Origin: Opitutaceae bacterium
Lineage (GTDB): Bacteria > Verrucomicrobiota > Verrucomicrobiia > Opitutales > Opitutaceae
Assembly (NCBI GenBank): GCA_023269565.1
Contig: JAHFTD010000013.1
Coordinates: 1 to 40,540 of the forward strand
Length of the DNA stretch: 40,540 nucleotides
Direction of reading: 5' to 3'
The notes beneath the pieces were generated by a model, which was not told where the DNA came from, searched no databases, and saw only the letters and a program-made list of their open reading frames with translations. Position 1 is the stretch's first letter. Each line of letters starts with the position of its first letter. The translations under genes and the position numbers were made by a program. Positions 4,295 to 24,785 of this stretch are shown piece after piece.

Positions 4295-5527
4295 TCACTC
4301 CGCGAAGAATTTCTGAATCTTCTGCAGCGAGGCGATGAGGCGTTCGATCTCGGCCTCGGTGTTGTAGAGGTAGAAGCTGGCGCGGGCGGTGGAGGGCAGA
4401 CCGAGCTTGCGCATGAGCGGCTGGTTGCAGTGGTGGCCGCCGCGGAGCGCGATGCCGTCGCGGTCGGCGAGCGTGACGACATCGTGCGCGTGCGCGCCGG
4501 GCAGGGCGAAGGAGATGACGCCGCTGCGGTGTTGCGCGGGCCCGAGCATGCGGATGCCGGGGACTTCCGTGGCCATGCGCGCGTAGGCGTGGGCGGCGAG
4601 CTTCTCGTCGTGCCGGGCGATGGCTTCACGGCCGAGGCCGTCGAGGTAGTCCATGGCGGTAGCGAGCCCGATGACGTCGGCGATGTTGGGCGTGCCGGCC
4701 TCGAACTTGGCGGGGGCGGGCGCCCACTTGCTCTCGAAATACTCGACGGAGGAGATCATGGAGCCGCCGCCACGGTAGGGCGGCATGTTGTCCAGCAGGG
4801 GCGCGCGGCCGTAGAGGACGCCGACACCGGTGGGCCCGCACATCTTGTGGCCGGAGACGGCGAGGAAATCGCAGCCGATGGCGCGGGTATCGAGCGGCAG
4901 GTGGCCGGCGCTTTGCGCGGCGTCGATGACGGTGAGCGCGCCGACCTTCTTCGCGGCGGCGCAGAGGTCGGCGGCGGGGTTGATGACGCCGAGGGTGTTC
5001 GAGACGTGCGTGAACGCGAAGATCTTCACCTCGGGGGTGAGCACCGAACTGAGCTGGTCGAGGTCGAGCAGGCCGGTGTCGCCGGGGACGATGGGCAGGT
5101 AGCGGAGCTTGGCGCCGGTGCGGCGCGCGAGAAGCTGCCAGGGCACCATGTTCGAGTGGTGCTCCATCTCGGTGAGGAGGATGACGTCGCCCTTCTTCAG
5201 GTTCTCGTCGCCCCAGGCGTGGGCGACAAGGTTGATCGAGTCGGTGGTGCCAGCGGTGAAGACGATCTCGGCGGGCGAGCCGGCGTTGAGGAACTTGGCG
5301 GAGCGCTCGCGGGCGGCCTCGTAAGCGGCGGTGGCGCGGATCGAGAGCGTATGGATGCCGCGGTGGACGTTGGCATTGTCGCGCTCGTAATAGCGCACGA
5401 GGGCGTCGATGACGCAGCGGGGCTTCTGGGTCGTGGCGGCGTTGTCGAGGTAGACGAGCGGCTGGCCGTTGATCCGCTGGTCAAGGATCGGGAAGTCGGC
5501 GCGGAGATTTTTCCAGGAGGCGTTCAT
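4295..5527 (-). CDS. sufS: SufS-type cysteine desulfurase
   Basis: The 410-residue PLP enzyme removes sulfur from cysteine and passes a persulfide to a scaffold or transfer protein for Fe-S cluster assembly in the cytoplasm. Group II (SufS) features are clear: YLDNAATTQKP near residue 27, MEHHSN with His124, the Schiff-base lysine Lys228 in SGHKMCGPTGVGVLYGR, and the active-site cysteine Cys367 in LRGGHHCNQPLM. ATG 5527 overlaps the sufU stop by one base (TGATG), so translation is coupled. The adjacent sufU supports the SufS assignment over NifS/IscS. No sufBCD genes are in the window. Confidence 0.95.
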   Translation of the reverse strand: MNASWKNLRADFPILDQRINGQPLVYLDNAATTQKPRCVIDALVRYYERDNANVHRGIHTLSIRATAAYEAARERSAKFLNAGSPAEIVFTAGTTDSINLVAHAWGDENLKKGDVILLTEMEHHSNMVPWQLLARRTGAKLRYLPIVPGDTGLLDLDQLSSVLTPEVKIFAFTHVSNTLGVINPAADLCAAAKKVGALTVIDAAQSAGHLPLDTRAIGCDFLAVSGHKMCGPTGVGVLYGRAPLLDNMPPYRGGGSMISSVEYFESKWAPAPAKFEAGTPNIADVIGLATAMDYLDGLGREAIARHDEKLAAHAYARMATEVPGIRMLGPAQHRSGVISFALPGAHAHDVVTLADRDGIALRGGHHCNQPLMRKLGLPSTARASFYLYNTEAEIERLIASLQKIQKFFAE

Positions 5528-5982
5528 CAGTCGCTGGTCTTTTCGGTGGTGGCGGGGGCGGGCTCGCCGTGGACGGCGTTGAGGGCGGCGTGCCAGCTGA
5601 GGGTGGCGCACTTGATGCGGGCAGGAAACTGATGCACGCCGGCGAGCGCGGAGAGATCGGAGAACTCATCGTCCTTCACGTCGCCGCTGGTGATCAGCTT
5701 CAGGACGTCGCCGGCGATGGCCTCGGCTTCCGGGATGGTCCGGCCCTTGAGGTTGAGGGTCATAAGCGAGGCGGAGGCCTGGGAGATGGCGCAGCCGCTG
5801 CCTTGGAAAGTGACGTCCTTGATGCGGTCGCCGTCGAGCTCGACGTAGATGGTGACCTCGTCACCGCAGAGGGGATTGTTGCCAGAGCCAACGCGATTGG
5901 CGGTGGGCAGGACCCGGTAGTTCCGCGGGCGGCGGTTATGGTCGAGGATGACAGTCTGGTAGAGGTCGGTGAGATCGTGCAT
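5527..5982 (-). CDS. sufU: SufU-type zinc sulfurtransferase for Fe-S assembly
   Basis: A 151-residue IscU-fold protein. SufU proteins accept persulfide sulfur from SufS by zinc-ligand swapping and pass it to the SufBCD scaffold. The conserved ligands are present: Cys39 and Asp41 in NPLCGD, Cys64 in FQGSGCAISQAS, and Cys125 in IKCATLSW. The insertion between the second and third cysteines (residues about 75-120) is the SufU-type rather than the IscU-type pattern. It is the first gene of a two-gene sufU-sufS unit. The 74 bases between it and the upstream NADH dehydrogenase gene on the same strand leave room for its own promoter, though no clear -10/-35 is seen. Confidence 0.93.
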   Translation of the reverse strand: MHDLTDLYQTVILDHNRRPRNYRVLPTANRVGSGNNPLCGDEVTIYVELDGDRIKDVTFQGSGCAISQASASLMTLNLKGRTIPEAEAIAGDVLKLITSGDVKDDEFSDLSALAGVHQFPARIKCATLSWHAALNAVHGEPAPATTEKTSD

Positions 5983-6056: not shown

Positions 6057-8096
6057 TTAGGCCGGCTTTGGCGGGGCACTGGTCGGGCCGACCTTCTGCA
6101 GGACGCCCGCGAGGAGCCGGCGGGCGCGGATGAAGCCGACGAGCCGCAGGCTCTGCTTGTCGGCGACGACGGGGAGAAATTTCAGGCCGTGTTCGCGGAA
6201 GGCCGCCGCAGCGACTATGCAGGTGTCGTCCTGCGTGATGGCGACGGGGGACTTGGTCATGAACTGCGTTACTGGCGTTACGGCGGGCGAACCCTGCGCG
6301 CGGAGAATGTCGGTGAGGGTGACGATGCCGTCGAGCCGGGCGCCGCCGGATGAGACATAGAAGAAATCCGGCGTATAATGCGCGAAGACGCGCGTGGCCT
6401 CGGAGAGCGTGTCGGTGGGTTTGAGCAGCGGCTGGGGGACGGGTTCAATGAAGTCGGCCAGCGTGGCGTCGCGCAGGGCGGCCATGATGTCGGGTTGCTG
6501 CTGCCAGTAGCTCGGGGCGCGCCGGGTGATGGCGGCGGTGAGCGCGGCGCGGAGCGGCGCGAGGGACTTGGAAATGGTGGTGAAGACGTTGCGGCCCATG
6601 ACGACGACCTCGAGGGGCGTGCGGGCGCGGACCGAGGCGCCGCGCGGCTGGTTGTTGATCAGCGCGGCTTCGCCAAAGAAGTTGCCCGGGCCGATGACGG
6701 CGATGACCTCGCCCTGCGGCGTTTCCGGCGCGACACGGAAGATCTCCACCTCGCCCTTTTCGATGACATAGAAGCTGGAAGGCGCCTCGCCCTGCCGGAT
6801 GACATAGTCGCCCGGCTCGTAGTGGGCGTGCGAGATGCGGTCGGTGACATCGGTCTTGAGGTGGGAAAGGTCGCGGGGAAAGAACAGCAACCAGGCCCAG
6901 TCCATGCCGACCTGGATGCGCCGGGACCAGTCGGGCAGCTTGAAGAGGTAGACGCCGCGCCAGGTGAACCACGCCAAAAAGCCGGAGAGGCGGAAGCCGA
7001 ACATCTCGGCGACCGCGCAATGGCCGCCGATGGAGCAGAGCTGGCCGAGGACCTTGAAGGAAAAGGGGCGGGTCGGCTCGCCGCCGAGCACACGCCCGAT
7101 GTTCTCGGCGCACTGGCGACCCTGCCGCTCGGCGAACTGCCCGGTGGGCGGCGAGGGCTGCTGGTCGTGGGCGTTGATGATGCAGGCGCAGTCGCCGATG
7201 GCCCAGGCGTTGGCGCGGCCGCGCAGGCGCAGGTCGGACTCGGTGAGGAGGCGGCCCTTTTCCTTGGGCGAGTCGAGGCGGTCGACAACGGGCGAGGTGG
7301 TGCTGCCGATGGTGCAGACGATGGTGCCGCCGCGGACGAAGTCATCCTTCAGGCCCACGCCTTCGCCGGTGGCGAGCTGCACGCGGGCGTTGAGCTTCAT
7401 GGTGACGCCGGCGTGTTCCATCTCCCGGCGGGCGAATTCGCGGAGCGGCGGGCTGATCTCGGGCAGCAGCTGGTCGCGCGAGTGGATGAGCGTGACGGTC
7501 ATCTCGTCGGGGCTGATGTTGCGGTAGAAGCGGGCGCTGGTGCGGACGAGGTCGTTGATTTCGCCGGCGGTCTCGACGCCGCTGTAGCCGCCCCCGACGA
7601 CGATGAAGGAGAGCAGCCAGCGGCGGTGCGCGGGATCCTCGCAAACCTCGGCCTTCTCCATCTGCTGCAGGATCTGCGTGCGGAGGACGGCGGCGTCGCC
7701 GACGGTCTTCAGCGGGAAGGCGTGGTCGGCCATGCCCGGCACAACGTTGAGGTTGGAGATGTTGCCGCAGCCGATGACGACATGGTCGTAGGCGAGGCGG
7801 CGGGGCTTGCCGTCGTAGCCCTCGAACTCGACCTCGTTGGCGGCGAGGTCGATGTGCCGGATCTCCTCGGTGCGGCAGAGAACGCCGGGCAGGAGCTGGC
7901 GCAGCGGCACGATGACGTCGAGGATGTTGAGCGAGGAGCCGACGGCATCGGCGAGCAGCGGGCTGAAGACAAGGTGGTTTTCCTTGTTGAACAGGACAAT
8001 CTCGGCGTCGCTATCGCGGAAGCGGGCGCGCAGGGTGCGGGCGCACTTCACGCCGCCGAAGCCGCCGCCAATGATAATGATGCGTTTGGTGCCCAT
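6057..8096 (-). CDS. Type II NADH dehydrogenase fused to cNMP-binding and CBS domains
   Basis: This 679-residue protein combines three modules. Residues 1 to about 415 form a pyridine nucleotide-disulfide oxidoreductase of the NDH-2 type: the first dinucleotide motif is IIIIGGGFGG (6-15), the second is VVGGGYSGVETAGE (166-179), the FAD-contact motif is AIGDCA (299-304), and an amphipathic C-terminal membrane anchor lies around 371-413. Residues about 425-525 are a cyclic-nucleotide-binding (CAP_ED) fold with FFGEAALINNQPRGASV; Glu476 and Arg485 sit where phosphate-binding residues lie in true cNMP binders. Residues about 545-670 are two CBS repeats. NDH-2 transfers electrons from NADH to quinone at the inner membrane without pumping protons. 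The added domains suggest allosteric control by cyclic and adenine nucleotides, which is inference. Confidence 0.88.
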   Translation of the reverse strand: MGTKRIIIIGGGFGGVKCARTLRARFRDSDAEIVLFNKENHLVFSPLLADAVGSSLNILDVIVPLRQLLPGVLCRTEEIRHIDLAANEVEFEGYDGKPRRLAYDHVVIGCGNISNLNVVPGMADHAFPLKTVGDAAVLRTQILQQMEKAEVCEDPAHRRWLLSFIVVGGGYSGVETAGEINDLVRTSARFYRNISPDEMTVTLIHSRDQLLPEISPPLREFARREMEHAGVTMKLNARVQLATGEGVGLKDDFVRGGTIVCTIGSTTSPVVDRLDSPKEKGRLLTESDLRLRGRANAWAIGDCACIINAHDQQPSPPTGQFAERQGRQCAENIGRVLGGEPTRPFSFKVLGQLCSIGGHCAVAEMFGFRLSGFLAWFTWRGVYLFKLPDWSRRIQVGMDWAWLLFFPRDLSHLKTDVTDRISHAHYEPGDYVIRQGEAPSSFYVIEKGEVEIFRVAPETPQGEVIAVIGPGNFFGEAALINNQPRGASVRARTPLEVVVMGRNVFTTISKSLAPLRAALTAAITRRAPSYWQQQPDIMAALRDATLADFIEPVPQPLLKPTDTLSEATRVFAHYTPDFFYVSSGGARLDGIVTLTDILRAQGSPAVTPVTQFMTKSPVAITQDDTCIVAAAAFREHGLKFLPVVADKQSLRLVGFIRARRLLAGVLQKVGPTSAPPKPA

Positions 8097-8177: not shown

Positions 8178-8675
8178 CTATTCCAGCCTAGGCTCGTAGC
8201 TCTCCGCCGGGCGGGGCGTGAGATGGTGGCCCACGATGAGCCGCGCGCAGGCGTTCCAGCGGAGGAGCGCATCGTCGTTGCCGGGCGGGCGGATCTTTTC
8301 CGCCTGCTCATACGAGTCCATTGCCTCGCGCAACAGTTCGAAGGCGGCGAAACCCGAGTCGGTCGCGCCCTGCGTGAGCTGGAACTTGCCGCGGCGCTCG
8401 CGGGCGATGCCGGTGTAGTAGCACCGCTCGTAGTCGTCGCGCAGCCGGGCGAGCACCTCCTGCACCCGCGTGGTGCTCACGGCGTAGCCCTTGCCGAAAC
8501 GATCGGTCATCGCCAGCAGCAGCAGCACGAGCGCCTTCTGATTTTCGGGCTCCACGGCCAGCACGTCGAGGCAAATGCTCTCGGCCTCGCCGGGTTCGTT
8601 GAGGAGGCGGTAGCGCATCGCCTTCTCCAGCGCGGCGGAAATGGCGTCCGGGTGCAATGGCTTGAGATCGAACAT
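8178..8675 (-). CDS. TPR-like protein of unknown function
   Basis: A 165-residue soluble protein with no signal peptide. Its helical pattern, including AISAALEKAMRYRLLNEPGEAESICLDVLAVEPENQ (split here as AISAALEKAMRYRLL and GEAESICLDVLAVEPENQ) and AMDSYEQAEKIRPPGNDDALLRWNAC, resembles tetratricopeptide repeats, which usually mediate protein contacts. It lies between the NDH-2 gene and sdhB on the same strand, with 81 and 86 bases of spacing, so co-transcription with the sdh genes is possible. I do not recognise a specific family and no catalytic residue is apparent. Confidence 0.65.
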   Translation of the reverse strand: MFDLKPLHPDAISAALEKAMRYRLLNEPGEAESICLDVLAVEPENQKALVLLLLAMTDRFGKGYAVSTTRVQEVLARLRDDYERCYYTGIARERRGKFQLTQGATDSGFAAFELLREAMDSYEQAEKIRPPGNDDALLRWNACARLIVGHHLTPRPAESYEPRLE

Positions 8676-8761: not shown

Positions 8762-9514
8762 TCAGCGCTTCAACGCATTTCTCGCCTGCTTGGCCAGCCA
8801 GCCGAGCGGGTCGTAGAACTCGTCCACCACGCGCTCCTTCAGCGGGATGATGGCGTTGTCGGTGATCGTGATGTTTTCCGGGCAGACGGTGGTGCAGCAC
8901 TTGGTGATGTTGCACAGGCCGACGCCGTGCGCCTGCTTGAGCTCGGGGAGGCGATCCTCCGTGTCGAGCGGGTGCATCTCCAGCGCCGCCGTGTAAACGA
9001 GGAAACGCGGTCCGATGAAATCGTCGTGCCGGTGGTGGTCGCGCAGCACGTGGCACACGTCCTGGCAGAGGAAACACTCGATGCACTTGCGGAATTCCTG
9101 CACGCGGTCGACGTCCGCTTGCGCCATGCGCCAGGTGCCGTCCGGTGCGTCGGGCGCGCGCGGCTTGAAGGGCTTGATCTTTTTCTTCACCCGATAGTTC
9201 CACGACACGTCGGTGGCGAGATCCCGCACAACGGGGAAGGCCTTCATCGGCTCGATGATCACCGGTCGGTCGAGCGGGATGGCGCTGAGCCGCGTCATGC
9301 ACATCAGCTTCGGCATCCCGTTGACTTCGGCGGAACACGAACCGCACTTGCCGGCCTTGCAATTCCACCGGCACGCGAGGTCATGGGCGTGCTTCGCCTG
9401 AAGCTGGTTCACCGCATCGAGCACGACCATGCCTTCGCTGACTTCCACGGGGTAGTCGCGGAACTCACCGCCCTGCGCGTCGCCGCGCCAGATTCTGAAC
9501 GTAGCCGTGCTCAT
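8762..9514 (-). CDS. sdhB: Succinate dehydrogenase/fumarate reductase iron-sulfur subunit
   Basis: The 250-residue subunit carries electrons from the flavoprotein to quinone through three Fe-S clusters. All ligands are visible with standard spacing: [2Fe-2S] at Cys52, Cys57, Cys60 and Cys72 (plus a nearby Cys48); [4Fe-4S] at Cys144, Cys147, Cys150 and Cys211; [3Fe-4S] at Cys154, Cys201 and Cys207. ATG 9514 overlaps the sdhA stop in an ATGA, and a GAGGAG sequence lies shortly upstream within sdhA, one of the few good ribosome sites in the window. Gene order C-A-B is that of type B succinate:quinone reductases. The enzyme functions at the inner membrane in the TCA cycle. Confidence 0.95.
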   Translation of the reverse strand: MSTATFRIWRGDAQGGEFRDYPVEVSEGMVVLDAVNQLQAKHAHDLACRWNCKAGKCGSCSAEVNGMPKLMCMTRLSAIPLDRPVIIEPMKAFPVVRDLATDVSWNYRVKKKIKPFKPRAPDAPDGTWRMAQADVDRVQEFRKCIECFLCQDVCHVLRDHHRHDDFIGPRFLVYTAALEMHPLDTEDRLPELKQAHGVGLCNITKCCTTVCPENITITDNAIIPLKERVVDEFYDPLGWLAKQARNALKR

Positions 9515-11337
9515 TTCATCTCCTCGATGACTTGCTTCAGATGCGCTGGCAGGTCCGGGAGCGGTTCGCGGTTTACCTGCATCGAGCCGTCGGCACCTTT
9601 GTGGATGATGACACTCTGCTGGCCGAGCGTGGCGTCCTTGTTGGGAAAGTCGTCGCGGAACTGTGCGCCGCGGCTCTCTTTGCGCTCGAGCGCCGCGCGC
9701 GTGATCGCCTCGGAGACGGTGAGCAGGCTGCGCAGGTCGAGCGCGGTGTGCCAGCCGGGGTTGAAGTCGCGGTGGCCGGTCACGCCCACGCGGCGCGCGC
9801 GGGCGTTCAGCCGCGCGAGGCCGTCGAGCGCGCGGAGCATCTCGTCCTCGCGGCGCACGATGCCGACGAGGTTCTGCATCATTTCCTGCAAGTCGAACTG
9901 CACCTGGTAGGGACCCTCGAAATCCGCGCTTGCGGTGACGTTGCGGCCAAACGGTTCGAGCGCGCGCCGGGTCGCCTCCTCGACCTGCGCGGAGTTGATC
10001 GAGCCGGCGAGGTTTTCCTTCGCAAACTTCGCCGCGAATTCGCCGGCCCGTTGGCCGAAGACAAGCAGGTCGGAGAGCGAATTGCCGCCGAGCCGGTTCG
10101 CGCCGTTGATGCCCGCCGCGCATTCGCCGGCGGCGAACAGGCCGGGCACGCTCGACATCTGCGTGTCGGCGTCGACCTTCACGCCGCCCATGATGTAGTG
10201 CGTGGTCGGGCCGACCTCCATCGGTTCGCGGGTGATGTCCACGTCGCCGAGTTGTTTGAACTGGTGATACATGCTTGGCAGCTTGCGCTTGATGTGCTCC
10301 TCCGCGTGGGCGAGGCGCTGCTGGATCCACGAAATGTCGAGGAATACGCCGCCGTGCGGGCTGCCGCGGCCCTCCTTGATTTCGCGCACGATGCAGCGCG
10401 CGACGTGGTCGCGGGTGAGCAGCTCCGGCGGACGGCGCGCCTCCTTGTCGCCCTGCGTGTAGCGCCAGCCTTCCTCCTCGTTGTCGGCGGTCTGCGCCTT
10501 GTAGTTGTCCGGAATAAAGCCGAACATGAACCGCTTGCCGTCCTTGTTCGTGAGGATGCCGCCCTCGCCGCGCACACCCTCGGTCACGAGCATCCCGCAC
10601 ACGCTCGGCGGCCAGACCATGCCGGTGGGATGGAACTGGAGATATTCCATGTCGATGAGAGCGGCGCCGGCATGATACGCCAGCGAGTGGCCGTCGCCCG
10701 TGCAGTCCCAACTGTTACTCGTGATCTTGTAGGCCTTGCCGACGCCCCCGGTGGCGAGCACGACCGCCTTGGCGCGGAAAATCCTGAACTTGCCCCGCTC
10801 GCGATCGAAACCGAGCGCGCCGACCACGCGCCCGCCCTCCTTGAGCAACTCGATCACGCAAACCTCCATGTGCACGTCGATCCCTTGGTGGACGCCGCGA
10901 TCCTGCAGCGTGCGGATCAGCTCCAGCCCCGTGCGGTCGCCGACGTGCGCGAGGCGCGGATATTTGTGCCCGCCGAAATTCCGCTGGAGGATGCGGCCGT
11001 CCGGCGTGCGGTCGAACACCGCGCCCCAGGCCTCGAGTTCGCGCACGCGTTCCGGCGCCTCCTTCGCGTGCAGCTCGGCCATGCGCCAGTTGTTGACGTA
11101 TTGGCCGCCGCGCATCGTGTCGGCGAAGTGGACCTGCCAGTTGTCGCGGTCATCCACATTCGCCAGCGCCGCGGCGATGCCGCCCTCGGCCATGACGGTG
11201 TGGGCTTTTCCAAGCAGGCACTTGCAGACCATGCCGACGGAAACGCCCGCGGCCGACGCCTCGATCGCCGCGCGCAGGCCCGCGCCGCCGGAGCCGATGA
11301 CCAGCACGTCGTGTTCGATTGTTTCGTAGTCAGGCAT
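9511..11337 (-). CDS. sdhA: Succinate dehydrogenase/fumarate reductase flavoprotein subunit
   Basis: The 608-residue catalytic subunit interconverts succinate and fumarate. The N-terminal FAD fold shows VLVIGSGGAGLRAA (residues 11-24) and KAHTVMAEGG, where His46 occupies the position of the covalent-FAD histidine. The dicarboxylate site is represented by LQFHPTG, LVTEGVRGEGGIL and PTTHYIMGGV, followed by GGNSLSDLLVFGQRAG near the FAD. The C-terminal domain is of the usual length. ATG 11337 was chosen because it precedes the family N-terminus; the longer open frame upstream is a shadow of sdhC. It lies 14 bases after sdhC and overlaps sdhB by four bases. Whether the complex works mainly as dehydrogenase or reductase cannot be told from sequence. 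Confidence 0.95.
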   Translation of the reverse strand: MPDYETIEHDVLVIGSGGAGLRAAIEASAAGVSVGMVCKCLLGKAHTVMAEGGIAAALANVDDRDNWQVHFADTMRGGQYVNNWRMAELHAKEAPERVRELEAWGAVFDRTPDGRILQRNFGGHKYPRLAHVGDRTGLELIRTLQDRGVHQGIDVHMEVCVIELLKEGGRVVGALGFDRERGKFRIFRAKAVVLATGGVGKAYKITSNSWDCTGDGHSLAYHAGAALIDMEYLQFHPTGMVWPPSVCGMLVTEGVRGEGGILTNKDGKRFMFGFIPDNYKAQTADNEEEGWRYTQGDKEARRPPELLTRDHVARCIVREIKEGRGSPHGGVFLDISWIQQRLAHAEEHIKRKLPSMYHQFKQLGDVDITREPMEVGPTTHYIMGGVKVDADTQMSSVPGLFAAGECAAGINGANRLGGNSLSDLLVFGQRAGEFAAKFAKENLAGSINSAQVEEATRRALEPFGRNVTASADFEGPYQVQFDLQEMMQNLVGIVRREDEMLRALDGLARLNARARRVGVTGHRDFNPGWHTALDLRSLLTVSEAITRAALERKESRGAQFRDDFPNKDATLGQQSVIIHKGADGSMQVNREPLPDLPAHLKQVIEEMK

Positions 11338-11351
11338 GGGTGGTCGGTCGA

Positions 11352-12152
11352 TCAGAGGAGGCGCACGTCGTGCCACACGCCCATGGCGCAAAGCCGGATG
11401 TAAACGTCGCTGAAGCCGACCCAGAACAAACTCATCCAGGCCCAGAGCAGGTGGCGGCGGTTGAGGCCGCTCACGCAGCGCCACGCGTGCTGGCACGTGG
11501 GCGCGCACGACACTTCGTCGAGCCCGCCGCCGACCAGGTGCCGCAGCGAATGGCAGCCGAAGGTGTAGCCGCCGAGCAGGCAGACGTTCACCGCCAGCAC
11601 GAGCGTGCCCACACCGATGCCAAACGTGGTCTGGCCCGCCGCGCCGGCAAACCACAGCGCCTTCCACACGTCGTGCGCCAGCACCAGGATGAACAGCAGC
11701 GCCAGATAGAGGAAGTAGCGGTGGACATTTTGCAGGATGAGCGGCAAAGAGTTTTCGCCCAGATAACTCTTCCGCGGCTCGCCGACCGCGCACGCCAGCG
11801 GATCGGCCCAGAATGATTTGTAGTAGGCGCCGCGGTAGTAGTAGCACGTCATCCGGAAGCCGGCCGGAATCCAGAGGATCAACAGCGCCGGCGAAAACGG
11901 CAGCCACGACGGCCACGCGGCGGGTTTCGGTCCAAGCAAGGCGTGCGGCGAATCGCCGAAAATCTCCGGCGAATAAAACGGCGAGAGATACGGTCCGAAG
12001 TTATAGTCCTTCCCTTGGAAAGCGGCCCACGTCGAGTAGAGGACGAACGCCGACAAGCCGGCGAAAACGAGCAACGGCTGCGCCCACCACGCGTCGGGGC
12101 GCGTCGTTTCGCCAAAGCGCCGGGGCGCCGGGGACCATTCAACTTGGGCCAT
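11352..12152 (-). CDS. sdhC: Succinate dehydrogenase membrane anchor (cytochrome b-type subunit)
   Basis: A 266-residue integral membrane protein with about five helices, near residues 26-45, 85-105, 143-165, 175-198 and 235-257. Position at the head of the sdhCAB operon identifies it as the single-polypeptide anchor expected in type B complexes. Candidate heme ligands are His144 (QNVHRYFLYL), His160 (VLAHDVWK), His201/His205 (FGCHSLRHLVGG) and His234. It also has an unusual loop with four cysteines (Cys200, Cys216, Cys220, Cys226) between helices four and five. Its sequence is far from the E. coli SdhC/SdhD type, so the assignment rests mainly on context and topology. Its start codon lies inside the truncated ndh reading frame described at 12139-12249. 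Confidence 0.85.
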   Translation of the reverse strand: MAQVEWSPAPRRFGETTRPDAWWAQPLLVFAGLSAFVLYSTWAAFQGKDYNFGPYLSPFYSPEIFGDSPHALLGPKPAAWPSWLPFSPALLILWIPAGFRMTCYYYRGAYYKSFWADPLACAVGEPRKSYLGENSLPLILQNVHRYFLYLALLFILVLAHDVWKALWFAGAAGQTTFGIGVGTLVLAVNVCLLGGYTFGCHSLRHLVGGGLDEVSCAPTCQHAWRCVSGLNRRHLLWAWMSLFWVGFSDVYIRLCAMGVWHDVRLL

Positions 12153-12522: not shown

Positions 12523-12565
12523 TGGGGTAGGGTGGTAGCTTGGCTTGATTTTTTCTCTTCCTCCC

Positions 12566-13081
12566 ATGGTCTCCGCCAACCGCGAGTTCGCCTATGACAG
12601 CAAAATCGAGGGCGACGTCATTGTCACCCGGGCCGACGCCGCGATCAACTGGGTCCGCACCAACTCCATGTGGCCCATGCCGATGGGCCTGGCCTGTTGC
12701 GCCATCGAGATGATGGCCACCGCGGCCAGCCGTTACGACATCGCGCGATTCGGCGCGGAGGTCATGCGCTTTTCCCCCCGACAGTCCGACTGCATGATCG
12801 TGGCCGGCACCGTCACCTACAAGATGGCCACGGCGCTCCGCCGCATCTACGACCAGATGACCGAGCCGAAATGGGTCATTGCCATGGGGGCCTGCGCCTC
12901 CACCGGTGGCATGTATCGCAGTTACGCCGTGCTGCAAGGGGTCGACCGCATCGTGCCGGTGGACGTCTATGTCAGCGGCTGTCCGCCGCGCCCCGAGGCA
13001 CTGTTGGACGCCCTCCTGAAGCTCCAAAACAAGGTCAAACGCGAGCGTTCGGCCTCCAAACTCTTCCAGCAGTCGGCTTGA
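12566..13081 (+). CDS. nuoB: NADH-quinone oxidoreductase subunit B (N2 cluster)
   Basis: The 171-residue subunit holds the terminal [4Fe-4S] cluster N2 that passes electrons to quinone in complex I. The four ligands are seen as the tandem Cys44-Cys45 ([10 protein letters not shown]), Cys110 (MGACASTGG) and Cys139 (VSGCPPRPE). ATG 12566 is preferred to the upstream TTG; the sequence before it is pyrimidine-rich and has no Shine-Dalgarno element. It is the first gene of the nuo operon here. nuoA, which normally precedes nuoB, is not between it and tRNA-Ser. Confidence 0.96.
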
Positions 13082-13109
13082 GCCGCCGCCAGTCCGTGCG
13101 CCCCACGCC

Positions 13110-13721
13110 ATGACCGACGTCACCGCCGCCGTCCCACTGGAGTTTCCGCAGGCCACGCCCCGCGCCAGCCTCGACTGCCCGGCGTTCAACCTCCCCGCCG
13201 CCACCGCGCCCGCGCTGCTGCGCCATCTGCGCGACCAGCACGCTTTCGATTTCCTGATGGATATAACGGCCATCGACTGGACCGCCGCGAAGTCCCCGCG
13301 CTTCACTGTCGTGTGGCACCTGTATTCCTCCACCGCGCACGGCTACGTCCGCGTCGCCGCCGATTGCCCGGATGATGCCGCGCCCGCCGTGCCGAGCGTC
13401 TGCAGCCTCTGGCCCGGCGCCAACTGGCACGAGCGCGAGACTTGGGACATGTTCGGCATCCGGTTCACCGGCCACCCCGACCTGCGGCGCATCCTGATGT
13501 GGGAGGGCTACCCGTATCACCCGCTCCGCAAGGAATTCCCGCTTGCCGGCATCGAGACCGAGCTGCCCGACGCCGACATCGCCGCCGAGACGGGCGCCAA
13601 GGTGAAGCCCGCGCCGATGGCCGGCGGCCCGTTCGCCGCCACTCCCGGCGAGCCGATGAGCGAGGCCGAGCCCCGCGCTCGCGACGAGAGCTGGGATGAG
13701 CAGCGCGAGAAACCCGAATGA
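13110..13721 (+). CDS. nuoC: NADH-quinone oxidoreductase subunit C
   Basis: The 203-residue peripheral-arm subunit is identified by the 30 kDa-subunit signature: NWHERETWDMFGIRFTGHPD followed by LRRILMWEGYPYHPLRKEFPL. It lacks cofactors and helps form the connecting module between the Fe-S chain and the membrane arm. The C-terminus after residue 150 carries a tail rich in Ala, Pro and charged residues (EAEPRARDESWDEQREKPE) that looks flexible. It starts 28 bases after nuoB and ends in an ATGA overlap with nuoD; it is a separate gene, not a nuoCD fusion. Confidence 0.95.
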   Translation: MTDVTAAVPLEFPQATPRASLDCPAFNLPAATAPALLRHLRDQHAFDFLMDITAIDWTAAKSPRFTVVWHLYSSTAHGYVRVAADCPDDAAPAVPSVCSLWPGANWHERETWDMFGIRFTGHPDLRRILMWEGYPYHPLRKEFPLAGIETELPDADIAAETGAKVKPAPMAGGPFAATPGEPMSEAEPRARDESWDEQREKPE

Positions 13722-14956
13722 CAATGGCGAACGAATTCACCTTTCCCGATGCCGCCGCCAAGGCCGCCACCGTCCCGAAGGAATTCGAGCCGGAGCGGAT
13801 GTCGCTGTCGATGGGCCCGTCGCATCCGTCCACCCACGGCGTGCTGCGCATCCAGTTCGAGCTCGAAGGCGAAATGGTGACGAAGGCCGATCCGGTCGTC
13901 GGCTACCTGCACCGCGGCGACGAGAAGATCGCCGAAAACATGACCTACAACCAGTTCGTGCCCTACACGGACCGGCTGGATTACCTCGCCCCGCTCGCCA
14001 ACAACATGGCTTACGCCATCGCAGTCGAGCGCCTCGCCAAGCTCGAACTGCCGCCCCGCGGCCAGGCCATCCGCGTCCTCACGGCGGAGATGGCGCGCCT
14101 CTCGTCGCACCTGATGGGCCTCGGCGCCTATGGCATCGATGTCGGTGCGTGGACGGTGTTCATGTATTGCTTCGAGGAGCGCGAGAAACTCTACACGCTC
14201 TTCGAGAAGCTCACCGGCGCGCGCTTCACCACCAGCTATACGCGCATCGGTGGCGTCGCACGCGACGTGCCACCGGGGTGGCTCAAAGAGGTGGGCGCGT
14301 TTTGCGACCAATTCCTGCCCATCCTCGACGAGATCTTCTCACTCCTGACGCGCAACAAGATCTTCCTCGACCGCACGGTCGGCGTCGGCGTCATCTCGCG
14401 GGCGGACGCCATCGCCTACGGCCTCACCGGCCCGAACCTCCGCGGCTCCGGCGTGCCGCTCGACCTGCGCAAGGACCGGCCCTACTCGGGTTACGAGCAA
14501 TACGAGTTCGACGTGCCCGTCGGCGCCACTGGCGACTGCTACGACCGCTACCTGGTCCGCGGCGAGGAGATGAAGCAGTCCGTCCGCATCATCCGGCAGG
14601 TGCTCGCGAAGTTTCCGGAGGGCGACTGGTTTACCCGCGACGCACGGCGCATCTTCGCCCCGCCGAAGGACAAGATCCTCACGAGCATGGAGGAACTGAT
14701 CAACAACTTCATGCTCGTCACCGAGGGCCCGCAGATGCCCGCCGGCGAGGTCTATTTTGAGGCCGAGAATCCGAAGGGCGCACTTGGATTCTACGTGGTG
14801 AGCACCGGCGGGGGCGTGCCGTGGCGCCTGAAGATCCGCAGCCCGTCGTTCTGCAACCTCTCCATTCTGCCCAAGCTCTGCGTCGGCCACTTGGTGTCCG
14901 ATGTCGTCTCCATCCTCGGCTCGCTCGATTTTGTCATGGGCGAGTGCGACCGCTGA
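13718..14956 (+). CDS. nuoD: NADH-quinone oxidoreductase subunit D
   Basis: The 412-residue 49 kDa-type subunit forms the quinone site with NuoB. It contains the SMGPSHPSTHGVLRIQFELEG signature near residue 30, with the His and neighbouring residues at the quinone head-group site, and the YTDRLDYLAPLANNMAYAIA segment. ATG 13718 overlaps the nuoC stop by four bases; a second in-frame ATG lies two codons later. The C-terminal FCNLSILPKLCVGHLVSDVV and GSLDFVMGECDR end matches the family. Confidence 0.96.
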   Translation: MTMANEFTFPDAAAKAATVPKEFEPERMSLSMGPSHPSTHGVLRIQFELEGEMVTKADPVVGYLHRGDEKIAENMTYNQFVPYTDRLDYLAPLANNMAYAIAVERLAKLELPPRGQAIRVLTAEMARLSSHLMGLGAYGIDVGAWTVFMYCFEEREKLYTLFEKLTGARFTTSYTRIGGVARDVPPGWLKEVGAFCDQFLPILDEIFSLLTRNKIFLDRTVGVGVISRADAIAYGLTGPNLRGSGVPLDLRKDRPYSGYEQYEFDVPVGATGDCYDRYLVRGEEMKQSVRIIRQVLAKFPEGDWFTRDARRIFAPPKDKILTSMEELINNFMLVTEGPQMPAGEVYFEAENPKGALGFYVVSTGGGVPWRLKIRSPSFCNLSILPKLCVGHLVSDVVSILGSLDFVMGECDR

Positions 14957-14962
14957 ACTGCC

Positions 14963-15457
14963 ATGAACCTGAAACCCGCGACACTCCGGCAGATCGACGA
15001 GGTCATCACCCATTATCCGGTGAAACGCAGCGCCGCGCTCCCGCTGCTTCATCTCGTGCAGGAGGACCAGGGTTACATTTCCCGCGAGGCCATTGAATGG
15101 ATCGCGGCCAAGCTCGAGCTCCAGCCGATCAACATCTACGAGCTCGTCACCTTCTACCCGATGTTCCGGCAGCACCCGATTGGCCGCCGCCACATCCGGG
15201 TCTGCCGCACCCTCTCCTGCGCGCTCACCGGCGGTTACCACGTGTGCGCGCGGTTCCAGCAGGAGCTCAGCTGCCCGCCCGGCGGCACCTCCGCCGACGG
15301 CGAGGTTACCATCGAGTTTGTCGAGTGCCTTGCGAGTTGCGGCACCGGCCCGGTCGTCATGATCGACGACGACCTGCACGAGAAAGTCGATCTCACCAAG
15401 GCCACCCAGCTCTCCCAGCAAATCAAAGCCGCGGCGAAGACCCGCAATCCTCCATGA
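14963..15457 (+). CDS. nuoE: NADH-quinone oxidoreductase subunit E ([2Fe-2S] N1a)
   Basis: The 164-residue 24 kDa-type subunit belongs to the NADH-dehydrogenase module. Its thioredoxin-like fold ligates cluster N1a through Cys81 and Cys86 (RVCRTLSCALTGG) and Cys122 and Cys126 (FVECLASCGTGPVV). The N-terminal helical domain shows ELVTFYPMFRQHPIGRRHIRV. The stop overlaps the start of the next small membrane-protein gene in an ATGA. Confidence 0.95.
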   Translation: MNLKPATLRQIDEVITHYPVKRSAALPLLHLVQEDQGYISREAIEWIAAKLELQPINIYELVTFYPMFRQHPIGRRHIRVCRTLSCALTGGYHVCARFQQELSCPPGGTSADGEVTIEFVECLASCGTGPVVMIDDDLHEKVDLTKATQLSQQIKAAAKTRNPP

Positions 15458-15768
15458 AAAAACACCGCCTCATGCAAGTCCCGCCGCTGCGCTTCGGCAT
15501 CGTCATCGGCCTGATCAACGGCTTCGTCGGGTTGCTCGTCGCACCTGTGCTGCTGCTCACCCTCGGCGCGGCCGCCACCGCGGCCGATCTGAATTACGCG
15601 CCGAAGCTGCTGGGCATCCCCTGGCTCTTCGCCGGCGCCGCCTCGCTGTTCATGCCCATCATCCACGCACTCGGCGGCTTTCTCTTCGGCGTCGTTCTCG
15701 CCATGCTCTACAACTTCGCCGCCCGCTGGACCGGCGGCATCGTGTTCTACACGGACGATTCCGAGTAA
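15454..15768 (+). CDS. Small membrane protein inside the nuo operon, unknown function
   Basis: A 104-residue protein with two or three hydrophobic helices. The first is FGIVIGLINGFVGLLVAPVLLL, and the second region runs through LFAGAASLFMPIIHALGGFL into FGVVLAMLYNFAARWTGGI. It ends in a short acidic tail. The LYNFAARWTGGI ending resembles small DUF3566-like membrane proteins, a tentative match from memory. Its ATG overlaps the nuoE stop and its stop is nine bases before nuoF, so it is embedded and probably translationally coupled in the operon. It is not a canonical complex I subunit (it is not NuoA, which has three helices with a conserved acidic loop). It could be an assembly factor or lineage-specific accessory subunit. 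Confidence 0.75.
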   Translation: MKKHRLMQVPPLRFGIVIGLINGFVGLLVAPVLLLTLGAAATAADLNYAPKLLGIPWLFAGAASLFMPIIHALGGFLFGVVLAMLYNFAARWTGGIVFYTDDSE

Positions 15769-15777
15769 CCCGACCCG

Positions 15778-17127
15778 ATGCCTGCTCCCGTCCAACGCCG
15801 CCTGATCTTCGCCCACATCGACGAGCCGGGCTACACGCCCGACCTCGCCTGCTACCGGCGGCACGGCGGCTACGAGGTCATGAAGCGTGCCTTCGCCCGC
15901 CCGCCCGCCGAGCTGATCGACGAGGTCAAGAAGTCCGGCCTGCGCGGCCGTGGCGGCGCCGGTTTCTCCTGCGGCCTCAAGTGGACGCTCGTTGACCGCA
16001 AAAGCGGCAAACCCATCTACCTTGTTGTCAACGCCGACGAGTCCGAGCCCGGCACGTTCAAGGACCGCTACATCATCCACCAGGATCCGCACCAGCTCAT
16101 CGAGGGCGCCATGATCACCTGCTGGGCGAACAACGTGCAGCAGGCCTACATCTACATCCGCGGCGAGTTTCCCCACGGCGCCCGCATTCTGGAGAAGGCC
16201 ATCGCCGAGGCCCGCGCCGCCAACCTCGTGGGCAAAAACATCCTCGGCACCGCCTATTCGTGCGACCTCTTCGTGCACCGCGGCGCCGGCGCCTACATCT
16301 GCGGCGAGGAGACCGGCCTCATCGAGTCGCTCGAGGGCAAGCGTCCCTATCCGCGCATCAAGCCGCCGTATTTCCCCGCCGTGCTCGGCCTCTACCAGTG
16401 CCCGACCATCGTCAATAATGTCGAGACACTCTGCCACGTGAAGCACATCGCCGACCTGGGGGGCGACGCCTACGCGCGCATCGGCACGCCCAACAACACC
16501 GGCACGCGCATCTACTGCGTCTCCGGTCATGTGCAGCGCCCCGGCTACTACGAGTTCGAGTGCGGCAAGATCACGATGGGCCAGCTGCTCCATGAGGTCT
16601 GCGGCGGCCCGCTCCCCGGCCGGAAGTTCAAGGCCGTCATCCCCGGCGGCTCCTCGGCCAAGGTCCTCCGTTTTGGCGAGAAATTTAATATTAAGCAGAA
16701 GGACGGCTCGATGAGCGAACTCGGCGTTGAGGATTTGCCGCTGGACTTCGACACCCTCGCCGCCGCCGGCACGATGGGCGGCTCCGGCGGCATCATCGTG
16801 ATGGACGATTCCGTCAACATGGTCGAGGCGCTCGCCAACCTCAACGCGTTCTACGCTCATGAGAGCTGCGGCCAGTGCACACCCTGCCGCGAGGGCTCGC
16901 TCTGGATGAAGAAAATCTCCGCGCGCATGGTCCACGGCGGTGCGCGCCCGCAGGATGGCGAGCTGCTCAAGAACGTCGCCGACCAGATCGCCGGCCGCAC
17001 CATCTGCGCCTTCGGCGAAGCCTGCGCGTGGCCGACGCAGAGCTTCGTCCAGAAATTCGGCGACGAATTCGCGGGCTATTCCGCGGCAAAGAAAGAACCG
17101 CCCGCCGAGAGCGTCCCGCTCATCTGA
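15778..17127 (+). CDS. nuoF: NADH-quinone oxidoreductase subunit F (NADH/FMN, N3 cluster)
   Basis: The 449-residue 51 kDa-type subunit oxidises NADH through FMN. The glycine-rich nucleotide motif GLRGRGGAGFSCGLKW (residues 54-69), ADESEPGTFKDR (87-97) and AYICGEETGLIESLEG (172-187) are present. The N3 [4Fe-4S] cluster is ligated by Cys364, Cys367, Cys370 (ESCGQCTPCREG) and Cys410. Length and motifs match standard NuoF. Nine bases separate it from the preceding small gene and nine from nuoG. Confidence 0.96.
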   Translation: MPAPVQRRLIFAHIDEPGYTPDLACYRRHGGYEVMKRAFARPPAELIDEVKKSGLRGRGGAGFSCGLKWTLVDRKSGKPIYLVVNADESEPGTFKDRYIIHQDPHQLIEGAMITCWANNVQQAYIYIRGEFPHGARILEKAIAEARAANLVGKNILGTAYSCDLFVHRGAGAYICGEETGLIESLEGKRPYPRIKPPYFPAVLGLYQCPTIVNNVETLCHVKHIADLGGDAYARIGTPNNTGTRIYCVSGHVQRPGYYEFECGKITMGQLLHEVCGGPLPGRKFKAVIPGGSSAKVLRFGEKFNIKQKDGSMSELGVEDLPLDFDTLAAAGTMGGSGGIIVMDDSVNMVEALANLNAFYAHESCGQCTPCREGSLWMKKISARMVHGGARPQDGELLKNVADQIAGRTICAFGEACAWPTQSFVQKFGDEFAGYSAAKKEPPAESVPLI

Positions 17128-17136
17128 TTTTCCGCG

Positions 17137-18840
17137 ATGTCTGCCCCCGCCAAACCCGACCTCGTTACCGTCAACATCGACGGGCGCGATCTCGCCGTGC
17201 CCAAGGGCACCAACGTCATCGAGGCGGCGCGGCAGCTCGGCATTGAGATCCCGCATTACTGCTACCACCCGAAGCTCTCCGTCGTTGGCAACTGCCGCAT
17301 GTGCCTTGTCGAAATGGGCCTCCCCGCGGTGGACCCCGCGACCAGGCAGCCGTTGCTGAATCCGGCCACGGGCCGGCCGCGCGTCAACTGGATGCCGCGC
17401 CCGCAGATCGGCTGCGCCACCAACGCCATGCCGGGCCTGCACATCCGCACCAACACCCCGCTAGTCAGGGAGTGCCGCGAGGGCGTGACCGAGTTTCTCC
17501 TCCTCAACCACCCGCTCGACTGCCCCATCTGCGACCAGGCGGGCGAGTGCCGGCTCCAGGAATTCTCCACCAGCTACGGGCGCGGCTACTCGCGCTTCGT
17601 CGAGCAGAAGAATGTCAAGCCCAAGCAGACCCGGCTCGGCCCGCGCGTCATGCTCGACGACGAGCGCTGCATCCTCTGCTCGCGCTGCGTCCGCTTCTGT
17701 CAGGAGGTCGTGCACGACGACGTCCTCGGTTTCACCGATCGCGGCAGTTACAGCACGCTGACCTGCTACCCGGGCCGGCAGCTGGAGAACAATTATTCGC
17801 TCAACACCGTCGACATCTGCCCGGTCGGCGCGCTCACCTCGACCGACTTCCGCTTCAAGATGCGCGTCTGGTTCCTGAAGGCCACCCCCGGCATCGACCC
17901 GGAATCCTCCGTCGGTGCCAACACCGAGGTCTGGAGCCGCGAGGGCGTCATCTACCGTATTACCCCGCGGCGTAACGACGAGGTGAACGACACTTGGATG
18001 GCCGATTCCGGCCGCACGCTCTACCAGCAGGTCCACGCTGCTGACCGCCTGGCCGGTTACACCATCGACGGCCAGGCCACCGCGCCCGACATGGCGCTCA
18101 AGGCTGCCGCCGACCTCCTCGGGAGCGGCCGCGCCGCCGTCGTCGGCTCCGGCGGGAATAGCGTCGAGGAACAGTTTCTCGCGAAAAAGATTTCCGCGGC
18201 GCTCTCCGCACCTGCCATGCTCGTCAGCCGGGTGGGGCAGGGCGACGGCCTCCTCGTCTCCGCCGACCGCAACCCGAACGTCCGCGGCGCGCTTGTCACC
18301 GGGCTCATCTCCGCGCTGCCGGCGCCGCAACTCGCCGCCCTCGGTGCCGACATCGATACGGGCAAGGTAAAGATCATCCTCACTCTCGGCGAAGACCTCA
18401 CCGCCGCCGGCCTCACCTCCGCGCAGCTGGCGAAGGTTGCCATCGTCTACCTCGGCACGCACCGGAACGCCACGAGCGCCGCCGCGCGCGTCGTCATTCC
18501 GACCCTGACCGTGTTCGAAAAGAACGGCATGTTCATCAACCAGCAGTTCCGCCTGCAAAAATTCGCCCGCGCCGTCCCCGGGCCGCACGGCGTGGCCGAC
18601 GACCTTGTTACGCTCAGCCGCCTGCTCGCCGCACTCGGCGGCGGAACAATTGTCCCCGACCTTCACTCGCTCTGGGCCGTGCTCGCCGTCGAGGTGAAGC
18701 CGCTCGCGGGCATCTCCTACGCCAGCCTGTCCGCGACCGGACGGGTGCTCGACGCCAGCCCGTGGGCCGGCCTGCCCTTTGTCGAGGGCGAGTCGCTCCA
18801 CTTCAAACCCGCCGCGCAACCCGCGGCCGCCACCGCCTGA
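17137..18840 (+). CDS. nuoG: NADH-quinone oxidoreductase subunit G, short form
   Basis: At 567 residues this subunit is much shorter than E. coli NuoG (about 908). The N-terminal Fe-S domains are complete: [2Fe-2S] N1b at Cys42, Cys53, Cys56 and Cys93; the His-ligated [4Fe-4S] N5 at His125, Cys129, Cys132 and Cys138; N4 at Cys178, Cys181, Cys184 and Cys228. The following segment resembles the molybdopterin-oxidoreductase lead-in (YRITPRRNDEVNDTWMADSGR) but lacks all cysteines for the extra cluster N7, with Ala where the WLCD-type cysteine normally sits. The remaining C-terminal domain is a reduced, non-catalytic version. Confidence 0.94.
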   Translation: MSAPAKPDLVTVNIDGRDLAVPKGTNVIEAARQLGIEIPHYCYHPKLSVVGNCRMCLVEMGLPAVDPATRQPLLNPATGRPRVNWMPRPQIGCATNAMPGLHIRTNTPLVRECREGVTEFLLLNHPLDCPICDQAGECRLQEFSTSYGRGYSRFVEQKNVKPKQTRLGPRVMLDDERCILCSRCVRFCQEVVHDDVLGFTDRGSYSTLTCYPGRQLENNYSLNTVDICPVGALTSTDFRFKMRVWFLKATPGIDPESSVGANTEVWSREGVIYRITPRRNDEVNDTWMADSGRTLYQQVHAADRLAGYTIDGQATAPDMALKAAADLLGSGRAAVVGSGGNSVEEQFLAKKISAALSAPAMLVSRVGQGDGLLVSADRNPNVRGALVTGLISALPAPQLAALGADIDTGKVKIILTLGEDLTAAGLTSAQLAKVAIVYLGTHRNATSAAARVVIPTLTVFEKNGMFINQQFRLQKFARAVPGPHGVADDLVTLSRLLAALGGGTIVPDLHSLWAVLAVEVKPLAGISYASLSATGRVLDASPWAGLPFVEGESLHFKPAAQPAAATA

Positions 18841-18845
18841 CGTTC

Positions 18846-19988
18846 ATGAACGAACTCTGGACCAGCCTTCCTCCCGTCGTGCAGCTCTTCGTGAAGGGCG
18901 TCGCGGTGATCGCGATCATCTTCCCGCTGGCGGGGGCGTGCTCGCTGGCCGAGCGGAAGGTCTCTGCGTGGATCATGGGCCGGCCGGGTCCGAACCGCGC
19001 CATTCCGTTCTGGTTCGAGTGGGTGCCGGTGCTCGGCCCGTTCCTGCAGAAACTCGGCGTCTTCCACTTGATGTCCGACGGCCTGAAGATGCTCTTCAAG
19101 GAGGACTCGCTGCCCGGCCACGTCAACAAGCCTTACTTCATCCTCGCGCCGGTGCTGGCGATGGTTCCTGCGTTCACCACGGTCACGGTCGTGCCGTTCG
19201 GCGCCTACCTCGACTCCGCCGGCCGGCTCGTGCCGCTGATGCTGGCCAACGTCGACGTCGGCATCCTCGCGGTGTTCGCGGTAGGCTCGCTCGGCGTCTA
19301 CTCGCTCATCATCGCCGGCTGGTCGTCGAACTCGAAGTATCCCTTCCTCGGCGGCGTGCGCGCGTCGGCCCAGCTTATTTCCTACGAGCTCTCGATGACG
19401 CTCGCCGTGCTGCCCGTCTTCCTCTGGACCAACGCCCCCGGCGCCGCCGGCTCGCTCAGCCTCGTGCGCGTGGTCGAATTCCAGAGCGGCACCGGCCTGT
19501 GGAGCGGGATGTGGTTCGCGTTCCTCATGCCGCTCTCGGCGTTCATCTTCCTCGTCACGCTCTTCGCCGAGACGAACCGCCTGCCGTTCGACATGGCCGA
19601 GGGCGAGGCGGATCTCGTCGGCGGCTTCCACACCGAATACGGCGCGTTCAAGTGGTCGCTCTTCTTCGTCGCCGAGTATTCGCACATGCTCGTCGGCTCG
19701 GGCGTGTTCGTGCTGCTGTTCCTCGGCGGCTGGAACCCGCTGCCGTGGGTGCCGCTCGCGCGCGCCGCGGAGTGGCTGCACCTCGCCGGCCAGCCCGTGC
19801 TGCTCGGCCTGCTCTCCGTCGCGATCTTCCTCGGCAAGATCATCCTGATGATTTTCCTCTTCATGTGGGTGCGGTTCACGTTGCCGCGCTTCCGCTACGA
19901 CCAGGTGATGAAGCTCGGCTGGCAGCGACTGTTGCCCCTCGCCATCGCCAACCTCATCGTCTACGCGATCCTCATCGCTTCCCTGTAG
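18846..19988 (+). CDS. nuoH: NADH-quinone oxidoreductase subunit H
   Basis: The 380-residue membrane subunit joins the peripheral and membrane arms and lines the quinone channel. It has about eight helices and the family motifs AERKVSAWIMGRPGPNRA, QLISYELSMTLAVLPVF and FAETNRLPFDMAEGEADLVGG, which hold conserved acidic residues of the E-channel. ATG 18846 lies five bases after nuoG; upstream in-frame sequence is a shadow of nuoG. The protein is somewhat longer than E. coli NuoH (325) through extended loops and C-terminus. Confidence 0.95.
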   Translation: MNELWTSLPPVVQLFVKGVAVIAIIFPLAGACSLAERKVSAWIMGRPGPNRAIPFWFEWVPVLGPFLQKLGVFHLMSDGLKMLFKEDSLPGHVNKPYFILAPVLAMVPAFTTVTVVPFGAYLDSAGRLVPLMLANVDVGILAVFAVGSLGVYSLIIAGWSSNSKYPFLGGVRASAQLISYELSMTLAVLPVFLWTNAPGAAGSLSLVRVVEFQSGTGLWSGMWFAFLMPLSAFIFLVTLFAETNRLPFDMAEGEADLVGGFHTEYGAFKWSLFFVAEYSHMLVGSGVFVLLFLGGWNPLPWVPLARAAEWLHLAGQPVLLGLLSVAIFLGKIILMIFLFMWVRFTLPRFRYDQVMKLGWQRLLPLAIANLIVYAILIASL

Positions 19989-20006
19989 CCCCTTGCCCCG
20001 AACGCC

Positions 20007-20546
20007 ATGGCCGTCATTCCCGTCCAACGCCAACCTCTCAGCCTCGCGGAGCGCACCTACGTCCCGCAGATCCTGGCCGGCCTGCGCGTCACGCTGCGGC
20101 ATTTCTTCGCCCCGAATGTCACCCTCTCATATCCCGAGCAGCGCCCGGCCATCCCGCCCGGCTACCGCGGCGTTCCCACCTTGGTGAAGGACCCGCTTGG
20201 CCGCGAAAAATGCGTCTCGTGCCAGCTCTGCGAGTTCGTCTGCCCGCCCAAGGCCATCCGCATCACGCCGGGCGCGATCCCCGCTGGCACGCCGGCCGCC
20301 CACGTCGAGAAGGCCCCGCAGGCCTTTGACATCGACATGCTGCGCTGCATCTACTGCGGCCTCTGCGAGGAGGTCTGCCCCGAGGAGGCCATTTTCCTGC
20401 AGAACCAGTTCTCGATGTCCGGCTACAGCCGTGACGAGATGGTCAACCACAAGGACCGCCTCTACGAACTCGGCGGCACGCTGCCCGACTCGCATTTCAA
20501 GTGGGACAAGAAGAAGGAGGCCGCGGCCCACGGCAACGCGCACTGA
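20007..20546 (+). CDS. nuoI: NADH-quinone oxidoreductase subunit I (2x[4Fe-4S])
   Basis: The 179-residue ferredoxin-like subunit carries clusters N6a and N6b. Two CxxCxxCxxxCP motifs are present: Cys69, 72, 75 and 79 (CVSCQLCEFVCP) and Cys114, 117, 120 and 124 (CIYCGLCEEVCP). The N-terminal helix region (ILAGLRVTLRHFF) is the usual membrane-surface anchor. It follows nuoH by 18 bases and precedes nuoJ by three. Confidence 0.95.
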   Translation: MAVIPVQRQPLSLAERTYVPQILAGLRVTLRHFFAPNVTLSYPEQRPAIPPGYRGVPTLVKDPLGREKCVSCQLCEFVCPPKAIRITPGAIPAGTPAAHVEKAPQAFDIDMLRCIYCGLCEEVCPEEAIFLQNQFSMSGYSRDEMVNHKDRLYELGGTLPDSHFKWDKKKEAAAHGNAH

Positions 20547-20549
20547 GCC

Positions 20550-21059
20550 ATGACCGACACGTTCTTCACCCTCTTCGCCACCCTCACCGTCGTCAGCGCG
20601 GCGCTCGTCGTCGTGCATAAGAACGCCGTGAACGCCGCCATGTGCTTCCTGCTCAGCCTCGTCGGCGTCGCGGGTCTCTTCGTGCTGCTCGACGCCTACC
20701 TGCTGGCCTTCGTGCTGCTCCTCGTCTACGCGGGCGCCGTCGTCTCGCTGTTCCTCTTCATCATCATGCTGCTCGACACCCGGCCGGAGGAGCAAAAACC
20801 GTTCCGGCTGATGACGGTCGCCGGCGCGACGCTGGGCGGCGCGCTGCTGCTGGTGTGCGGCTCCTCCCTGTTTGCCCGCGCCCAATTCAGCGGCGCCAGC
20901 GCCGTCGAGCCGGTCGGTGCCGCGCTTAAACCCTACGCCGAGCAGCTCTTCACCACCTACCTCCTGCCGGTGCAGGTCGTGGGCTTCCTGCTCCTTGCCG
21001 CCATGCTCGGCGTCGTCGTGCTCAGCCGGAAATACGAAAAAACGGAGGGCGCGTCATGA
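20550..21059 (+). CDS. nuoJ: NADH-quinone oxidoreductase subunit J
   Basis: The 169-residue membrane subunit has about five helices. Its most conserved part, [32 protein letters not shown] (here [16 protein letters not shown] and [19 protein letters not shown]), contains the TM3 glycine/tyrosine region whose pi-bulge contributes to coupling in complex I. It starts three bases after nuoI and overlaps nuoK in an ATGA. Confidence 0.94.
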
Positions 21060-21364
21060 TTCACCCCACGCTCACCGCCTACCTCGTGGTCAGCGCGCTG
21101 CTCTTCGGGCTCGGCTTCTTCGGCGTGCTGCTGCGCAAGAACACCCTCATCATCTACCTTTGCCTCGAGCTGATGCTGGTGGCCTCGATGGTCGCGCTTG
21201 TGGCCTTCTCGCGCTTCAACGGCACGCTCGACGGCGATGTCTTCGTCTTCTTCGTCCTCACCATCGCGGCGGCCGAGGTCGCCGTCGGCCTCGCCCTCAT
21301 CGTCGCGCTCTTCCGCCGCCGCCATACCGTCCAAGTCGAAGAACTTAACTTCCTGAAGCACTGA
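21056..21364 (+). CDS. nuoK: NADH-quinone oxidoreductase subunit K
   Basis: The 102-residue three-helix subunit resembles the MrpC antiporter family. [17 protein letters not shown] contains the conserved TM2 glutamate, and a second acidic position lies in [27 protein letters not shown] sequence inside nuoJ, a few bases before the ATG, is one of the few clear ribosome-binding sites in the operon. Length is standard. nuoL begins one base after its stop. Confidence 0.95.
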
Positions 21365-21365
21365 C

Positions 21366-23237: not shown

Positions 23238-23240
23238 CCG

Positions 23241-24776: not shown

Positions 24777-24785
24777 GCTGACGCC

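Follow-up and report, generated by a model that had tools for sequence, protein, structure and literature searches.

An NDH-2-like respiratory flavoprotein of Opitutaceae carrying a cyclic-nucleotide-binding domain and a CBS pair, probably a regulated enzyme

Control of NDH-2, a common non-proton-pumping respiratory enzyme, is usually ascribed to expression and substrate supply. A gene in the window (the whole stretch of 40,540 nucleotides of an Opitutaceae contig analysed here) raises the question whether such an enzyme can carry a second-messenger sensor of its own. The first-pass annotation had read its product as an NDH-2 core followed by a CAP_ED domain, here called the cyclic-nucleotide-binding domain (CNBD), and two CBS repeats, and this domain order has been borne out by the open reading frame, Pfam and structure comparison (Table 1). 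Pyr_redox_2 was matched by residues 5-326 (E 1.7e-35), the NDH2_C match was above the cut-off (E 7.3e-9), the CNBD was matched by the cNMP_binding family, and CBS was matched by residues 609-663 (E 2e-13) and, when the stringency was lowered, by one more stretch. The full-length AlphaFold2 model, built from a 41-row alignment, has a pLDDT of 86.8 and a pTM of 0.60; its hinge at residues 412-415 is ill-defined (pLDDT <50) and its interdomain placement uncertain; the tail alone (residues 405-679) was modelled with a pLDDT of 81.2. How the domains are placed relative to each other is not to be read from these models. The CNBD and CBS folds of the modelled tail were matched separately to solved structures, all with Z ~15-16. 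Scanning for promoters and terminators gave no usable signal. As many relatives have kept the same fusion, the protein is probably a real, regulated version of the common enzyme.

Table 1. Positions of the fusion gene, its encoded domains and the neighbouring genes in the window.
Feature	Position	Strand	Details and basis
Whole fusion gene	6057..8096	-	679 aa, ATG start, intact ORF
NDH-2-type core, two dinucleotide-binding domains	7062..8096	-	Residues 1-345; Pyr_redox_2; structural Z 47-50
NDH2_C membrane-binding domain	6870..7049	-	Residues 350-409, helices 373-384 and 390-405; PF22366; model
CNBD	6573..6824	-	Residues 425-508; PF00027, E 2.4e-22; Z ~15
Phosphate-binding cassette	6624..6674	-	Residues 475-491, with Glu476 and Arg485; clade alignment
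CBS1	6291..6461	-	Residues ~546-602, with T593xxD596; low-stringency Pfam, structure comparison, motif scan
CBS2	6108..6272	-	Residues 609-663, without [S/T]xxD; PF00571, structure comparison, motif scan
sufU-like (NifU_N) gene, conserved downstream neighbour	5527..5982	-	Pfam; synteny
sufS-like class V aminotransferase gene, conserved downstream neighbour	4295..5530	-	Pfam; synteny; start inferred
165-aa ORF between sdhB and fusion gene	8178..8675	-	No family match
sdhB and sdhA (succinate dehydrogenase/fumarate reductase)	8762..11259	-	NCBIfam
Complex I (nuo) operon, divergent from fusion gene	12545..26303	+	nuoB, C, D, F, G, H, L by NCBIfam; remaining subunits from ORF order only

The core model has shown close likeness to the NDH-2s of C. 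thermarum (4nwz) and S. aureus (5na1), with an rmsd of ~2 Å over ~385 residues, and shares with them the fold, the C-terminal NDH2_C membrane domain and the GxGxxGxE motif with its catalytic Glu. This second dinucleotide motif (G168-x-G170-x-x-G173-x-E175) is invariant, and E175 aligns with E172, the catalytic Glu motif residue of the S. aureus enzyme (PMC5299459). In comparison to those NDH-2s, the fusion protein has GQxAxR for AQxAxQ, C261 for W261, Ser-Arg for Glu and an extra sensor tail of 260 residues. Its quinone-site motif (GQFAER) is closest to the AQxAxR variant found in 15% of NDH-2s (PMC5299459), the A to G replacement being a further change. Every clade member in which this motif could be located has C261xxG264 in place of W261xxG264, so that an element 99% conserved across NDH-2s (PMC5299459), a hallmark rather than a definition of the class, is missing.

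Nearly all clade members have Ser206 where beta-2 ends in the second Rossmann domain, and Arg207 next to it, whereas most plain NDH-2s in the alignment have Glu at the position of Ser206. In yeast Ndi1 the residue at this position is E272, for which a role in keeping NADPH from interacting has been proposed (PMC11670749). NADPH use may be possible since the acidic NADH-specifying residue has given way to Ser-Arg and Trp261 to Cys. The core could thus prefer NADPH, or work with another acceptor, the sensor then controlling NADPH turnover; this is the alternative that survives best, though rather unlikely, and it can hold together with what the favoured reading says of the sensor. An uncharged residue is no guarantee of NADPH use, as O. 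parapolymorpha Ndh2-3, with Gln at that site, did not oxidise NADPH (PMC11670749), and the occurrence of the AQxAxR motif type among NDH-2s may also speak against this alternative. On account of Ser206-Arg207 and C261, the protein was therefore classed as an NDH-2-like branch and not as a strict NDH-2, one that may use NADH or NADPH. The earlier name of NADH dehydrogenase has thereby become uncertain.

The nearest named loci belong to Opitutaceae (Verrucomicrobiota), among which the window protein sits in the tree, and full-length relatives occur in Melainabacteria/Obscuribacterales at 48-51% identity. A database search for the same domain order, suggested along with the first-pass annotation, has thus found it in Verrucomicrobiota and Melainabacteria. 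One Verrucomicrobiales relative (L055) has kept the CNBD and has no CBS. Using an NDH2_C plus CNBD profile, single-frame fusions were found in 28 of 388 Verrucomicrobiota genomes and 4 of 349 Pseudomonadota genomes, and the phylum of the Obscuribacterales locus gave one full and one contig-end match among 244 genomes; the counts include the seed genomes, and as the genomes were sampled the frequencies are rough.

A tree of the core only splits the relatives into clades A, B and C, with 94% bootstrap each for A and B. Clade A, to which the window protein belongs, has the cassette FGExALxxxxPRxASVRA. Clade B has the same domain order with the cassette FGERALLxDxxWRFxATA, in which Arg is displaced by one position, and clade C has a short, degenerate CNBD-like stub with neither the GE motif nor CBS. 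Clade C forms one group apart from L030, whose mis-extracted frame gives a long branch and which was disregarded. With a permissive threshold (E up to 1), each of the 26 aligned relatives matched PF00027; CBS was matched by 15 of them. The clade B fusions (L014, L017, L024, L029 and relatives among L132-L146) share the non-canonical cassette and may bind another ligand.

In the cassette of the window protein (FGEAALINNQPRGASVRA), Glu476 and Arg485 stand at the spacing seen in PKA, as had been noticed at first reading. The nearest sequence relatives of the CNBD include cAMP/cGMP-binding domains of known structure from PKA and PKG, and its nearest folds in the tail model include cAMP-bound CRP, PKA and Bd1971. 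Residues G475, E476, L479, R485, R490 and A491 are invariant in all 11 clade members aligned (48-80% identity), and no other part of the clade A CNBD is as well conserved as the cassette: 8 of its 19 columns are invariant, compared with 7 of 53 in the part preceding it. The Glu/Arg pair is kept throughout the clade of the window protein except for one clade-A-like member, L141, with His at the Arg485 site. As sister clades with the same fusion have lost the Arg or both residues, the CNBD fold can evidently persist without the pocket, and the conservation in clade A argues that the pocket is functional there. The same clades bear on the possibility that the tail is mainly structural, positioning or oligomerising the enzyme at the membrane with no ligand switch: in clade B the pocket is non-canonical although the fusion has been kept, and in clade C a degenerate stub is left. 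Such a role appears improbable for clade A, in which conservation within the CNBD is highest at the ligand-contacting residues.

A supply of ligand is suggested by the genome of the window (84% complete), which has 11 class III cyclase matches, the best with KIKTIGD...WGDTVN-type sites. The two best cyclases look adenylyl-cyclase-like, having Lys and Asp at what we take to be the base-recognising positions of adenylyl cyclases. Because of this, and because the residue after Arg485 varies freely (G/T/S/V/A/N), cGMP seems less likely than cAMP as the ligand. Six proteins with a CNBD are present in this genome. By eye, L003 (G000:C102:8191-11442) is an NrfD/PsrC-like polytopic membrane protein of ~640 aa with a canonical-looking CNBD (FGEISALAGTPRTASA) in its middle, and may be another cNMP-responsive respiratory protein; L006 (G000:C3:2611-5868) looks like a SulP-type transporter with a C-terminal CNBD, and two CNBDs are present in L004 (G000:C87:47552-50809), a membrane protein of 656 aa.

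Residues ~539-669 match solved tandem CBS pairs (Z ~16), some of which bind AMP, ATP or c-di-AMP, and structure comparison shows two paired repeats, i.e. a tandem CBS (Bateman) arrangement. The ribose-binding motif [S/T]xxD, which is not required of both repeats, is present in CBS1 in 17 of the 18 sequences scanned and is absent from CBS2. Of the CBS part as first annotated, the tandem pair stands and the nucleotide motif is confined to CBS1. A conservation count for the repeats was set aside because two members in which the CBS part is missing or broken had skewed it. In a Lacunisphaera MAG (L051:7623-8012) the CBS part runs on in another frame, perhaps through a frameshift or sequencing error. 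The tail may also sense a small molecule other than cAMP or cGMP, or the CBS pair may be the real sensor (of AMP, ATP, c-di-AMP or SAM), in view of its likeness to nucleotide-binding pairs and of CNBD-fold proteins with altered pockets which bind e.g. haem, as CooA does (PMC2246266); this is more improbable still, given a cassette canonical as in PKA and abundant cyclases in the genome. Trivial origins were ruled out, i.e. a chance ORF or annotation artefact by the same architecture at 70-80% identity in Opitutaceae and ~50% in another phylum, accidental joining of two genes by a single frame without internal stop also in relatives, and a fusion unique to one MAG by its wide occurrence.

On the minus strand a putative membrane-protein ORF (11352-12152) comes first, then sdhA, sdhB and the 165-aa ORF; the fusion gene is next, before sufU, sufS and hemN. 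The 165-aa ORF gave no Pfam or NCBIfam match; by eye it looks helical and TPR-like. The sufU and sufS genes lie 3' of the fusion gene in L046-L052, and the Melainabacteria loci are without this shared neighbourhood. The fusion gene had been placed beside a complex I operon. Such an operon does lie in the window, with sdhA/sdhB and the 165-aa ORF intervening; it is the next, divergent neighbour in the Opitutaceae loci L050-L052, and in L049 it is ~4 kb away. The genome, 84% complete, gave no NDH2_C match beyond the fusion protein.

Considering these results, we put at about one in two the probability that the fusion protein belongs to the NDH-2 type as a monotopic NAD(P)H:quinone reductase that pumps no protons and has a cytoplasmic tail sensing cAMP and perhaps adenine nucleotides. 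Control by cAMP would be the most likely function because of the covalent fusion, the pocket conservation and the cyclase supply; the varied residue after Arg485, the His in L141, C261 and the uncertain interdomain placement count against the reading as a whole. The architecture, folds, pocket conservation, synteny and presence of cyclases are seen directly; we infer ligand binding, the direction of its effect, quinone as the acceptor and the role as a bypass. In the proposed mechanism, the core would reduce quinone via FAD at the membrane surface, with the CNBD placed directly after the two membrane-binding helices and joined to them by a flexible hinge (residues ~410-416). Binding of cAMP by Glu476 and Arg485 would shift the post-pocket helix (502-525) leading into the CBS pair, which would alter how the enzyme is accessed, oriented or assembled, and CBS1 may supply an extra AMP/ATP readout. 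The cell could then move the entry of electrons from proton-pumping complex I to a bypass through the fusion protein, or back.

Separate CNBD-flavoprotein and CNBD-tandem-CBS families were already reported by Kannan et al. in 2007 (PMC2246266). 'Bact_Pyrredox' likewise has the CNBD C-terminal to a flavoprotein of the pyridine nucleotide-disulphide oxidoreductase type; it has tandem CNBDs and the cassette GEMGLISGRRRGATVRA, with CBS unmentioned, whereas the fusion protein has one CNBD only and falls outside that family (PMC2246266). The 'CBS' family shares the CNBD followed by tandem CBS, but its listed cassette GERALLAGGPYSLTARA is without the canonical Arg and a flavoprotein is undescribed (PMC2246266). 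Full-text literature searches found no report of a three-part NDH-2/CNBD/CBS protein, which is weak evidence as they covered open-licence papers only. The EAL phosphodiesterase Bd1971 (6hq3-6hq7) is a bacterial enzyme with a CNBD, solved with cAMP and cGMP, whose catalytic domain is unrelated. The EF-hand NDH-2s of plants and fungi (NDB type) are analogous in joining an NDH-2 to a second-messenger sensor, although that sensor is a calcium EF-hand and not homologous to the CNBD-CBS tail (PMC5877776, PMC4587368).

A sensor-bearing NDH-2-like enzyme would parallel the calcium-sensing NDH-2s of plants. The attached second-messenger sensor would allow fast control of the proton-motive force yield per NAD(P)H. 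More tentatively, direct gating by cAMP through the enzyme's own CNBD, together with an adenylate signal through CBS1, might give Verrucomicrobiota and Melainabacteria a real-time choice between coupled electron entry by complex I and uncoupled entry. The sister clades, with the pocket intact or lost, provide a natural test of the importance of the sensor.
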